Below are positions 27,483-31,815 of a stretch of DNA of 32,135 bases, piece after piece (within the stretch, counting starts at the first letter, position 1; each line of letters begins with the position of its first letter). The translations under genes were made by a program, and so were the position numbers. The DNA comes from a virus. The stretch covers positions 1-32,135 of IMG/VR virus record IMGVR_UViG_3300020463_000076. One strand, 5' to 3'. The notes beneath the pieces are model-generated. The model did not search any database, was not told the DNA's origin, and worked only from the letters and a program-made list of their open reading frames with translations.

Positions 27483-29753
27483 CTATGATCTAGCGGCCTG
27501 TAGTATTTTAGTATTGATTTGATTTGCACGTGATGTTTCATTTATCAACATATCAAGTCTTGCAAGTTGTGCTTCGCCAAGAGCATTCTGCATACCTCCG
27601 CCTGCGGCGGCTCCTGTTTCTATTGCCGGTGTAGCTGATTCACCGAGAGAATTGAAAAATGATGTCGTGTCACCCATACCACCTGCAATACCGCCTGCGG
27701 GACCTGCCATTGCACCTATACCTGGGCTAAGAGTTGGTAATTGGTTGTTAGGCATAATCATACCAGCAGTATCTGGTATCATAAGTTCTGGGCCTTGTTC
27801 TCCAACCATATAAAGTTCATCTTTATTTACTGGACCACCCATGGCATTTTTTTTCTTTGCTTTGTTTGCAGGTTTTTTTGTAAACAGTTCTCCAAACCAT
27901 GAGTCGTCATCAAAGTCAACCATATCCTGACCAACGCCTTCTTTACCGGCTGCATTTCCTGCTATAAGTCCCACAAGTGCACCTATACCGCCACCAATGG
28001 CAGTTCCTATTCCTGGAAGAATAAAACTTCCAATAGTAGCACCAATGGCTGCTCCGCCACCAGCGCCGAGGCCAGACGTAAGTGCAACATCACCTTTTTC
28101 TACAGTTTCTTTACCTAATCCAGCTTCTTGTCTAAGCATTTTTGCTATTTCTTCTTTTGTTTTACCTACGTATTTCATAAGGGACTGAGTACCTTCGACC
28201 ATGCCTTTTGTAAATGTTTCAATACCTGCAGCGGCCGCTGGTAACGTTGTTTGTAATGCTAGTTCATCTAATGCTTTTCCTGCTTTTATCATTGACTCTT
28301 GTGCATTTATCATCGAGTTTGTTACACCATCTGTGGTCTTTGCCGTTTGATCAACCTGTTTTGAAACTTTACCTATCTGCTCACCAAATTTGGCACCGAA
28401 TGTTAAGTTTTGTAGATCTAATATCACTGGTTCTAATGCAGTCCCCATACCACCAACTGCCATTGCAAACTTATCACCGCCCATGGATTGATATCTCGCA
28501 GCACCAGCTTCTTGCAATTTCATAAGTGCAGTGTCTCTATCGATTTGTCCAGCTTTTAATTGTGCTATAATCTGCATACCAGCAGCACCTGTGGCCTGTT
28601 GAAAGTTCTTAGCGGCGTCAGTTCCTAAGTTGTCACCAAGTGCATCTGCAAAACCTGCGGCAATAGCCGGTGCTCTTTCTTTTAATACTGATGTTACGCC
28701 TTGAATGTTTTCAACTGCGTCTTTTCCAGCAGTGCCTCCAAGTTTTGCTTGTACTTGTCTAAGAGCGGCTGATGCTCTGACATTACGCATTTGGTCGTCG
28801 AGTTCTTTCTGTTGTTCGCTTACGCTTCTGCCCGTAAGTTTTGAAAGTTCTGTTAAGTTTTTGATATAATTTTGAGAACCTTGTGCAAGTGAACGTGCAT
28901 CTCTTGCTTCGTTACGTCCTAATCTCTGTTGTAGTCCAATATAACCTGCAGTCAGTTCATTCTGTTGTTCTACTGTTACACCAAGTGCAAGTAAGCCTCT
29001 TCTAAAAGGCACCATTTCTTTACTGGTACTTGCTAGTGTTTTGGCGGCATCTGCACTGTTACCTAGTGCAAACACTAAGTCAGGTGCAGTTTTATTAATT
29101 ACGCCTGCAAATGTACTAAAACTTAATCCAGCATCAATGGCTTGATTTGCTAGTCCTCTTAGTCCGTCAGCACCTAATGCTCCAACTTGTCCTGCTTGTC
29201 TATAAGCCTTACTTGCACGTTCAAGTTCTGCAGTTAGCATAGGCCCAACTGTGTTGATTATATTACCGGCTGCTTCTGCTAAGGCCGCAGTAATCTTACC
29301 AGCGGCACTGACCAATCCACCAATTGCTCCACCAACAACTGGAATACTACTCAATGCATCGCCAAGTGCATCAACTACTCCACCGGTTAGTGACCCTGCT
29401 TTCTTAATTGTATCACCAGTAAGTTTGATTGCTGGATTTAGACTGGTAAAACTTTCTCTGTTTTCTCTTATGTCGGATGCGGCTTCGCCGAATCTAACCG
29501 CTAAATCTGCACTTCTACGTGCAAGATTGCTTACACTACCAGCAAATCGGCCTACACCTTTAGCGCCTTTGTTAACTTCTGCAGTTTGTAACTTTTCTGC
29601 ATCAGACTGTGCTTTTGATGACTTGGATGCATTCATTAAGGCTCTATTGACTTTTTCTACTTCCTTAGGGTCAATGGTCTTGCCTTGGGCAATGGTTTGA
29701 TTCAGAGCTTGAACTGCTCTGGTAAGTTCTTCGATGGTTTGATCGTCTGCCAT
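27483..29753 (-). CDS. Tail tape-measure-like protein (756 aa)
   Basis: The C-terminal segment NAMGGPVNKDELYMVGEQGP then ELMIPDTAGMIMPNN (about residues 650-690) is the motif typical of phage tail tape-measure proteins (Gly-rich start, YxVGExGPE, P-x-x-G-x-I-x-x-N). Two Gly/Ala-rich hydrophobic regions, at about 110-180 (SSIPVVGGAIGGLVSAAGKI) and about 555-605 (GSFILPGIGTAIGGGIGALV), separated by helices, also fit. Tape measures set tail length and occupy the tail lumen. A T4-type gp29 is not recognised in this window. The start ATG at 29753 has no good Shine-Dalgarno. A late box lies at 29798-29806 and gp26 is divergent. Confidence 0.68.
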   Translation of the reverse strand: MADDQTIEELTRAVQALNQTIAQGKTIDPKEVEKVNRALMNASKSSKAQSDAEKLQTAEVNKGAKGVGRFAGSVSNLARRSADLAVRFGEAASDIRENRESFTSLNPAIKLTGDTIKKAGSLTGGVVDALGDALSSIPVVGGAIGGLVSAAGKITAALAEAAGNIINTVGPMLTAELERASKAYRQAGQVGALGADGLRGLANQAIDAGLSFSTFAGVINKTAPDLVFALGNSADAAKTLASTSKEMVPFRRGLLALGVTVEQQNELTAGYIGLQQRLGRNEARDARSLAQGSQNYIKNLTELSKLTGRSVSEQQKELDDQMRNVRASAALRQVQAKLGGTAGKDAVENIQGVTSVLKERAPAIAAGFADALGDNLGTDAAKNFQQATGAAGMQIIAQLKAGQIDRDTALMKLQEAGAARYQSMGGDKFAMAVGGMGTALEPVILDLQNLTFGAKFGEQIGKVSKQVDQTAKTTDGVTNSMINAQESMIKAGKALDELALQTTLPAAAAGIETFTKGMVEGTQSLMKYVGKTKEEIAKMLRQEAGLGKETVEKGDVALTSGLGAGGGAAIGATIGSFILPGIGTAIGGGIGALVGLIAGNAAGKEGVGQDMVDFDDDSWFGELFTKKPANKAKKKNAMGGPVNKDELYMVGEQGPELMIPDTAGMIMPNNQLPTLSPGIGAMAGPAGGIAGGMGDTTSFFNSLGESATPAIETGAAAGGGMQNALGEAQLARLDMLINETSRANQINTKILQAARS

Positions 29754-29817: not shown

Positions 29818-30663
29818 ATGGAAGTAAAACAAGAGAATCCACTTGCTAAACATTTTAGGCAACCAGCAATCTATATTAAGTTGCCCAGTGATGGTGCATA
29901 CTATGATGAATCAGTCGTTGACATGCCAGAAAATGGTGAATTGCCAGTGTATCCAATGACTGCCCTTGATGAGATTCAATATAGAACTGCTGATGCATTG
30001 TTTAACGGCGCCGCAGTAGCAAATGTAATAACAAGTTGTATTCCGGCATTTAAGGACCCGTGGCAGATAAGCACTGCTGATTTAGACACATTGTTAATAT
30101 CAATTCGCATGGCAAGTTATGGTCATGAGATGGACTTTACAAGTACTTGTCCAAAATGCGAAGAAATTAGTGACTTTGGAATTGATCTAAGAACAATTCT
30201 CGAAAGTGTTTCTATGCCAGATTATAGTACGCCTGTTGTCAATGGAGACGTTAGTATTCATTTTAAACCATTAAGTTACAAAGAACAAAATGATAACAAC
30301 TTAGTACAATTTCAAGATCAAAAAATGCTCGAATCACTTCCGCAAAGTGATTTGCCAGAAGAGGAAAAACTACAAAAAATACAAGAAGCATTTACCAATA
30401 TAAGTGTATTAACACTAAATGCTATTGCTGATAGCATAGCAATGATCAAAGCTGGCGATGATATAGTGGTTGATAAAACGCATATCAAAGAATATTTGCA
30501 AAACTGTGATAACAAACACTTTGATAAAATACGTAAGAAAATTGAGTACATCAAAGAAGTCAGTGAAATAAAACCATTACATATTACTTGTGATAAATGC
30601 CAACACAAATACGAAACGCCGTTTACACTAAATGTTGCAAATTTTTTCGCATCAGGCTCTTAA
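29818..30663 (+). CDS. gp26: Baseplate hub protein gp26, T4_baseplate family
   Basis: A 281-aa protein beginning MEVKQENPLAKHFRQPAIYI then KLPSDGAYYDE, with PVYPMTALDEIQYRTADALF then NGAAVANVITSCIPAFKDPW, a pattern of the gp26/gp51-type baseplate hub family. Two CxxC pairs, CPKC (111-114) and CDKC (258-261), could together bind zinc. gp26 helps assemble the central hub of the baseplate. Two slippery heptamers occur six codons before its stop, and the next ORF is open in the -1 frame (see the frameshift site). ATG 29818 follows AGGAAAAAAC. The T4 homologue is shorter (about 208 aa) and lacks a visible second reading frame extension. Confidence 0.72.
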   Translation: MEVKQENPLAKHFRQPAIYIKLPSDGAYYDESVVDMPENGELPVYPMTALDEIQYRTADALFNGAAVANVITSCIPAFKDPWQISTADLDTLLISIRMASYGHEMDFTSTCPKCEEISDFGIDLRTILESVSMPDYSTPVVNGDVSIHFKPLSYKEQNDNNLVQFQDQKMLESLPQSDLPEEEKLQKIQEAFTNISVLTLNAIADSIAMIKAGDDIVVDKTHIKEYLQNCDNKHFDKIRKKIEYIKEVSEIKPLHITCDKCQHKYETPFTLNVANFFASGS

Positions 30664-30878
30664 CGTCCTCTCCTGAGCGTATCGAACAGATCGTGAATGA
30701 CATGGACAAAGAAGTTAAGGGCCTTAAAGAAGACATGCTCAAAATGGTTTGGTACATGAGAGGCGGTGTGACTTACAGTGAAATAGTACACATGAGTCAA
30801 CCTGAACGTGAATACATTGGTAGTCTAATAAAAGAAAACTTAGAAACTGCAAAGAAAACTGGACAACCGTTTTGGTAA
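30597..30878 (+). CDS. -1 frame ORF overlapping gp26 end; predicted frameshift extension
   Basis: The open frame begins at ATG 30597 inside gene 26 and ends at 30878, giving 93 codons. The coding-like part starts around TSSPERIEQIVNDMDKEVKG and continues LKEDMLKMVWYMRGGVTYSE to a GQPFW terminus. Candidate independent starts (ATG 30597, GTG 30693, ATG 30702) all lack a good Shine-Dalgarno. The block MVWYMRGGVTY with the ETAKKTGQPFW end resembles small proteins after gp26 in marine T4-like phages, perhaps corresponding to gp51. The most economical reading is a fusion made by -1 frameshifting at 30639-30648, giving about 353 aa. Independent expression or a sequencing indel in the T6 run cannot be excluded. 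Confidence 0.6.
   Translation: MPTQIRNAVYTKCCKFFRIRLLTSSPERIEQIVNDMDKEVKGLKEDMLKMVWYMRGGVTYSEIVHMSQPEREYIGSLIKENLETAKKTGQPFW
30639..30648 (+). promoter_or_regulatory. Predicted -1 programmed ribosomal frameshift site
   Basis: In the gp26 frame, A AAT TTT (30639-30645) and T TTT TTC (30642-30648) are two overlapping X XXY YYZ slippery heptamers. A 5-bp stem TCAGG (30652-30656) with CCTGA (30672-30676) lies a few bases downstream and could stimulate slippage. Confidence 0.6.
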
Positions 30879-31381
30879 TTCAACAAGTAAAAGCTGATAT
30901 AGAAGAATGGTTGGTTAATTTTGTTGAGGTTTCGCATCCTGCACTTGGAAACTTTCCGCCTTGTCCTTTTGCCCGACAGGCAAGATTGCAAAACAAATAC
31001 GATGTTAGACTTGGAGATGATCTAGAACGCGATTTATTTTTGTTCAGCAAAAAACAATACTTAGGCAAAAATGATGTGGTCATATATGCTTATCCTCCCA
31101 AGCAGTATGATGATGCGTACTTCAATTGGGTAGTTGATGTTGTAAACACTTCAAAAGGATTTACCAAACGGGATCTACTTGCACTTGCGGACCATCCAGA
31201 CACTGTAGAAGAACACAACGGGGTGTGTTTTAACATGGGTAAATATGCACTTGTACTCATACAAGACAAAACAAAACTACAGGACCATTCAAAGATGTTA
31301 GCCCACAAAGGCTATTATGATGGCTGGGACGAAGAATACCTGAAAGATGTATTTGCACACAGGAAAGATCCAAGACAATGA
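30872..31381 (+). CDS. Marine phage protein of unknown function (169 aa)
   Basis: The only start codons near the beginning are TTG 30872 (overlapping the previous stop by 7 bp) and the unusual ATT at 30878; TTG is taken. The product has the block VSHPALGNFPPCPFARQARL (about 20-39), typical of an uncharacterised family in marine phages and bacteria, then VVIYAYPPKQYDDAYFNWVV then DVVN and a C-terminal YYDGWDEEYLKDVFAHRKDP. A cysteine and aromatic residues are conspicuous, but I know no function. Coupling to its neighbours is tight, and it ends in an ATGA overlap with the next gene. It belongs to the plus-strand unit started by the gp26 promoter. Confidence 0.62.
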   Translation: MVIQQVKADIEEWLVNFVEVSHPALGNFPPCPFARQARLQNKYDVRLGDDLERDLFLFSKKQYLGKNDVVIYAYPPKQYDDAYFNWVVDVVNTSKGFTKRDLLALADHPDTVEEHNGVCFNMGKYALVLIQDKTKLQDHSKMLAHKGYYDGWDEEYLKDVFAHRKDPRQ

Positions 31382-31815
31382 TATACGCACGAATTGACCT
31401 CAGCAAAACCAACTATGAAGTTATACCTGAATACAAAAAAGTAAAACTTCCTCCTGTAGTGCCAAGCACACTAGAAGCAATCTACAATGCCTATTGTATT
31501 CATAAAAAGTTTAAAAGTGTTATGCCAATATTTGATGAAGAATACTATGACAACAACAACGAACTATTTGGTTACTACAACAAAGAAGAAAAACTGGTTG
31601 CATTCAGTTTACTTAGATGTTATAATAAGAAAAACGTTGAAGCAGTACAATTTGCTTGGGACTATGAAAATCCAGGATTACGGCTAGGCATTCGCAGTCT
31701 AAAAAACGAATGTGCAGTGTTTAAAAACCGCGGTTTTGACTATTTGTACCTAGGACAAGCAGATGATTACAAAACAAAAATTGATGGTTTTGAAACGTTA
31801 GGAGCAAGATTATAA
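31378..31815 (+). CDS. GNAT-fold acyltransferase-like protein (145 aa)
   Basis: Starts in the ATGA overlap with the preceding gene. The central part (FGYYNKEEKLVAFSLLRCYN, VEAVQFAWDYENPGLRLGIR) and the segment KNRGFDYLYLGQADDYKTKI then DGFETLGARL look like the end of a GNAT fold, especially the arginyl/leucyl-protein transferase (Ate/Bpt) type, where a Y-x-Y-L-G motif is followed by Y-K and F-x-x-L-G. The substrate is unknown, and no independent catalytic residues could be identified. It may modify a virion or host protein. A TAATG overlap links it to the next gene. Confidence 0.5.
   Translation: MIYARIDLSKTNYEVIPEYKKVKLPPVVPSTLEAIYNAYCIHKKFKSVMPIFDEEYYDNNNELFGYYNKEEKLVAFSLLRCYNKKNVEAVQFAWDYENPGLRLGIRSLKNECAVFKNRGFDYLYLGQADDYKTKIDGFETLGARL

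Follow-up and report, generated by a model that had tools for sequence, protein, structure and literature searches.

How many proteins are made from gene 26 is the question raised by this locus. In the window, i.e., the whole 32,135 nt stretch of viral DNA analysed here (IMG/VR record IMGVR_UViG_3300020463_000076), gene 26 (29818–30663, + strand) encodes gp26, a protein of 281 aa which we regard as the putative short isoform of a tail assembly chaperone, and a second open frame, shifted by −1, runs across its 3′ end. The initial annotation had proposed that a −1 ribosomal frameshift extends a fraction of gp26 to about 353 aa. This proposal is supported by a conserved heptamer, phase and coding constraint, and from comparative sequence evidence we estimate a probability of about 0.92 that gene 26 gives rise to two proteins by a −1 ribosomal frameshift near its end, resembling the G/GT arrangement.

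Gene 26 and its slip site

gp26 matches the T4_baseplate family PF12322 in Pfam (E-value 3e-17; 63.5 bits, curated cut-off 24.5) and the baseplate hub family phrog_150 in PHROG (E-value 4e-22); its usual annotation is baseplate hub protein. AlphaFold2 predicts an alpha/beta protein with a mean pLDDT of 89.6. The gene closes with the codons GCA AAT TTT TTC GCA TCA GGC TCT TAA, in which two overlapping −1 heptamers had been noticed before. Both are indeed present and both lie in the X XXY YYZ phase of gp26, namely A AAT TTT at 30639–30645 and the main heptamer, T TTT TTC, at 30642–30648 (both + strand). In-phase heptamers of any kind occur 32 times in the 24 main genes of the window (9,518 codons), and among these genes gp26 alone has a heptamer of any kind within its last 60 nt, and T TTT TTC/T is found in no other gene.

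The −1 frame is open across the slip site, as had been stated, and reaches from 30597 to 30878; a slip at the heptamer results in a computed fused product of 353 aa. Its extension, the predicted C-terminal domain of the long isoform, covers 30642–30878 (+ strand; 78 codons from the slip site plus the stop codon) and is based on tblastn, dN/dS, hhalign and AlphaFold2. The end of the extension is overlapped by an ORF with a TTG start (30872–31381, + strand), which matches phrog_28122, a family of unknown function (E-value 7e-16).

Conservation of the slip site in related phages

Using tblastn, gp26 was found in 62 phage records, mostly of jumbo myophages of approx. 280–490 kb, at about 22–32% identity. 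When the −1 extension was queried alone, the matches, again in jumbo phages, began at the slip site beside gp26 and in −1 phase. Each of the 16 isolate loci has T TTT TTC or T TTT TTT 10–40 nt before the gp26 stop codon, and the extension beyond the slip comprises 57–75 aa. Scans of IMG/VR and GenBank yielded 177 distinct jumbo/marine loci, including the isolates and the window, and 63 cyanophage-type loci; since single, broadly sampled alignments were too diverse to seed the contig scans, sub-group alignments were used instead. T TTT TTC/T is present in slip phase in 176 of the 177 jumbo/marine loci and in 63/63 cyanophage-type loci, adding up to 239 of 240 distinct loci; A AAT TTT occurs in 66 of the 177. 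The one locus without six Ts (L185, near 4827) has five and keeps A AAT TTT, so that in all 240 an in-phase X XXY YYZ heptamer is located close to where the upstream frame ends, as is expected of a programmed −1 frameshift. Every one of them also has a −1 extension, two of which are short because they are cut by contig ends. The initial annotation had singled out the heptamers, the −1 phase and the length of the T run for comparison among homologues: the heptamers recur as described, the phase is conserved over hundreds of loci rather than being unrelated between homologues, and independent contigs show the same run. The same junction was detected in four further lineages, represented by S-CAM1, Sinorhizobium phiM7, the Vibrio schizoT4-type vB_ValM_R10Z and Pseudomonas pf16, and the S-PM2-type extension is found in 602 phage records, most of the listed ones overlapping the gp26/gp51 junction. 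Two side observations concern variants of the site. T TTT TTT replaces T TTT TTC in XacN1, RAS14, phiM7 and pf16, and L185 offers a natural test case for the other heptamer, A AAT TTT.

A sequencing or assembly error in the T run could in principle hide one continuous gene, as homopolymers are error-prone and the run here is TTTTTT. This comparison refutes it, leaving a negligible probability: T6 and the two-frame structure recur across 240 distinct loci, and they are also seen in genomes of isolates that different laboratories sequenced.

Codon choice at the site was compared with the remainder of the genes. The first Phe codon is always TTT in the slip group, while the other Phe codons of these genes comprise 1187 TTT and 549 TTC. 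The codon preceding it always ends in T, even though eight different codons are used (AAT, AGT, GAT, CAT, ACT, CGT, TAT, GCT); in the cyanophage type, TCT also occurs at this position. Given gene-internal codon usage, and if the 68 cluster representatives are taken to be independent, log10 P is about −23 for the T-ending preceding codon and about −18 for the constant TTT. The FF pair itself is conserved in T4 gp26 as well (..KEFFELL), where it is encoded by TTC TTT after GAG and forms no slip site. Conservation of the slip site appears to exceed that of the protein sequence, since the combination of a T-ending codon with TTT is very unlikely by chance.

Coding constraint on the −1 extension

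Past the gp26 stop codon, pairwise dN/dS is 0.114 in the −1 frame (233 pairs) compared to 1.5 and 2.3 in the two remaining frames; in the cyanophage type, the corresponding values are 0.087 versus 1.5 and 2.5. Even between the gp26 stop codon and the first possible start codon in the −1 frame, the ratio is 0.23 as opposed to 1.4 and 2.0. As judged by these substitution ratios, strong purifying selection acts on the extension in the −1 frame but in neither of the others, and it extends to codons ahead of any possible start. The codon-level constraint that the initial annotation had proposed to look for is clearly found. That the frame continues open across the site and is subject to selection is a further property expected of a frameshift.

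That the downstream ORF has no good Shine-Dalgarno sequence, as had been remarked, is a fair description: no ATG, GTG or TTG in the −1 frame precedes the slip in 131 of 175 related loci, nor in any of the 63 cyanophage-type loci; in the window, an ATG lies ahead of the slip at 30597. Nevertheless, gene 26 and its extension might be two separate genes, gp26 ending at its stop codon and a small gp51 beginning by coupled re-initiation near or after it. This is how public records present gp51 of S-PM2, phiM7, CBB and others, namely as a separate CDS, and an ATG or GTG does occur shortly past the slip site in some loci. However, the first start codon after the slip has no constant place, being found anywhere from 9 to 117 nt downstream, and is preceded by SD-like words in only 39 of 175 loci. 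Since, moreover, constraint in the −1 frame is present upstream of any start, independent initiation fails to account for the extension. Two separate genes would also leave the invariant T TTT TTC and the stem described below unexplained, and T4 has a single gene in which this domain is joined to a gp26-like one. We consider this arrangement very unlikely.

A predicted stem-loop downstream of the slip site

The 5-bp stem TCAGG/CCTGA, which had initially been suggested as downstream element, is broken in an alignment of close relatives and was abandoned. Instead, a stem of 11 bp with a loop of 49 nt is predicted, whose 5′ arm (30654–30664, + strand) starts 5 nt after T TTT TTC and whose 3′ arm is located at 30714–30724 (+ strand; fold z −2.77). 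Folding of 60 nt downstream misses this stem (z 0.4 for the window), which is revealed when 83–85 nt are folded. In 17 distinct relatives, 92.5% of the cells of the 11-bp stem are paired, two of its pairs show paired changes on both sides, and pairing falls to 20–59% if the partner is shifted by one to three columns. RNAalifold, applied to the alignment of close relatives, returned no consensus structure. Among 69 representatives, the region downstream of the heptamer has a mean z of −1.85 compared to −0.17 in control windows (p = 5e-8); the stem is less pronounced in the cyanophage type (mean z −1.37). A contiguous stem of at least 8 bp starting 3–12 nt after the heptamer was found in 100 of 174 loci, versus 14 of 174 after codon shuffling. 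The RNA structure expected 5–9 nt downstream of a frameshift site would be provided by the predicted 11-bp stem, along with the family-wide excess. An SD-like stimulator upstream of the slip was also considered and rejected, as it is found in only 4 of 68 representatives.

The 5′ arm of the stem is fixed, while the 3′ arm is found in several registers and its position differs between clades. Tentatively, and with somewhat less than even odds, we propose that a fixed 5′ arm with a moving 3′ arm would be an unreported type of stimulator and that the frameshift in gene 26 would probably be the ancestral state.

These findings also bear on transcriptional slippage, in which RNA polymerase would add or drop a U in the T run so that the mRNA itself changes frame. 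Although a run of six Ts is available, polymerase slippage favours longer runs, and in these loci the run has a length of exactly six in nearly all cases and of seven in a few, and is not longer. It always begins at the wobble position, so two tRNAs can re-pair, and a T4-group gene with GAG TTT TTT AAA lacks this two-tRNA register. The five Ts of L185 are accompanied by an alternative ribosomal heptamer, and a stem at ribosomal spacing would not be expected. Slippage of the polymerase is, in our view, very improbable, even slightly more so than two separate genes.

Relation of the extension to gp51 of T4

Databases were searched for homologs of both parts of the fused product. The window extension alone has no significant match in Pfam or PHROG; its relatives match phrog_18291. 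AlphaFold2 predicts an all-helical extension (pLDDT 91). T4 gp51 consists of PF12322 over residues 1–201 and a further C-terminal part. In hhalign profile comparisons, the short form aligns with T4-type gp26 (E-value 6e-9) and the fused product aligns colinearly with T4-type gp51 (E-value 2e-6); the match of the extension to the C-terminus of T4-type gp51 is modest (E-value 2e-5, probability 76%, 32 columns). On the basis of these profiles, we consider the extension and the C-terminal part of T4 gp51 to be homologs. What is annotated as gp51 in S-PM2 is this −1 extension.

The number of PF12322 genes per phage is two in T4, 44RR and EC-F2, where the pair consists of a short gp26 and a long gp51, and one in phages that carry the slip site, namely S-PM2, Atu_ph07, 121Q and XacN1. 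The two genes are divergent in T4 and 44RR, and in tandem, with gp51 first, in EC-F2, from which it appears that the duplicated pair was rearranged. According to a comparison from 2010, gp51 of cyanophages and marine vibriophages is missing the first ~200 residues (PMC3037559). A frameshift from gp26 would supply these residues and explain the short cyanophage gp51.

Neither gp26 nor the extension has convincing sequence relatives among solved structures, and the gp26 fold has no match in PDB at E ≤ 0.001; consequently, the fold provides no tie to lambda gpG or other solved chaperones. In BFVD, the matches are T4-type hub/assembly proteins.

Tail gene neighbours and the putative chaperone role

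A candidate tail tape measure gene adjoins gp26 in divergent orientation (27483–29753, − strand; 756 aa). Its product, likely the client of the chaperone, matches the tail length tape measure family phrog_167 (E-value 1.4e-11) and contains a glycine-zipper stretch at residues 563–604. Several neighbours of gp26 in jumbo phages have no tape-measure match. A position beside the tape measure gene is typical of G/GT chaperones, and so are a short and a C-terminally extended form with a common N-terminal domain, which would be produced by the predicted slip here and by two genes in T4. The comparison with G/GT made in the initial annotation gains support from this neighbour and from the homology of the extension to T4 gp51. 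In phage CBB, virion mass spectrometry listed 55 proteins, and CBB_249/250, corresponding to gp26 and the extension, were not among them, an absence recorded for this one phage; its tape-measure-like neighbour was abundant, with 29 peptides (PMC5259590). Based on the short/long design, the tape measure neighbour and the CBB virion list, gp26 and the gp26-gp51 fusion would fit a tail assembly chaperone of the G/GT type. Further downstream, a 145-aa ORF (31378–31815, + strand) matches PF04377, the C-terminus of arginyl-tRNA-protein transferases (26.6 bits; cut-off 25), which is unusual near phage tail genes.

Discussion

From the conserved site, its phase and the stem we infer that slipping takes place and that it is confined to a minority of ribosomes. 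Most ribosomes would stop at 30663 and release gp26 of 281 aa. The others would slip back by one base, tRNA-Phe re-pairing on T TTT TTC and perhaps tRNA-Asn on A AAT TTT, assisted by the 11-bp stem-loop five bases downstream, and would read on to 30878 to form a gp26-gp51 fusion of 353 aa. If lambda G/GT is taken as a model, the short form may coat the tape measure protein, and the less abundant long form, whose tail is helical, may help tube subunits to polymerise around it, and neither would need to be in the virion.

Frameshifted tail chaperones are already known as a principle. Xu, Hendrix and Duda reportedly described a conserved tail-gene frameshift in 2004, and Vladimirov et al. (2022, Virology 566:9–15) are said to have identified the tail assembly chaperones of T4-like phages. 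In later papers, this work by Vladimirov, Gautam and Davidson is credited with polyT frameshift signals in the TAC-N genes of T4-like phages (PMC12846349) and with the occurrence, in some of these phages, of a short gene together with a fused long one (PMC10885494). The remark in the initial annotation that it knew of no described frameshift in gene 26 of T4-like phages may not stand, and the 2022 work probably covers part of the present finding.

It is conceivable, though we would rate it just short of an even chance, that a −1 frameshift in gene 26, aided by a stem-loop, is the common and probably ancestral route to a long tail chaperone in the T4 superfamily outside the T4 type, that the T4 type replaced it with a duplicated, fused gp51, and that cyanophages and marine vibriophages have no independent gene for the small “gp51”. 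T4 has long been the stated exception to the tail-gene frameshift, a review from 2016 calling the G-T shift general in long-tailed phages “except T4” (PMC5009743), and its wider kin would show this frameshift throughout. The puzzle of the short cyanophage and vibriophage gp51 from 2010 (PMC3037559) would be explained, hundreds of records would appear to be mis-annotated, and what gp26/gp51 do in tail assembly becomes testable.

Compared to known systems, gene 26 resembles lambda G/GT in that a −1 slip, predicted here, close to the 3′ terminus of a gene adjoining the tape measure gives rise to two forms, one short and one long, and in that the products need not be in the virion. It differs in that no link in sequence or solved fold to lambda was found, that the slip site is T TTT TTC, and that in the window gene 26 and the tape measure candidate are divergently oriented. 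In the Vandenendeviridae/Andersonviridae (phage Adele), a polyT −1 slip likewise lies at the end of the short gene, with the −1 frame open in all genomes (PMC12846349); the motif there is given as GTTTTT and the phage group is a different one. The cyanophage pair, e.g., of S-PM2, has the same T TTT TTC in the same phase and a gp51 which equals the −1 extension, but its extension is shorter (57–64 aa), its stem weaker, and a large tail gene follows directly after the pair. In T4, gp26 is homologous to the short form and gp51 combines a gp26-type domain with the same C-terminal part; in this phage, however, two divergent genes encode the short and long forms, and a slip site is absent. Frameshift and gene duplication would thus provide a clear case of two routes serving the same job.
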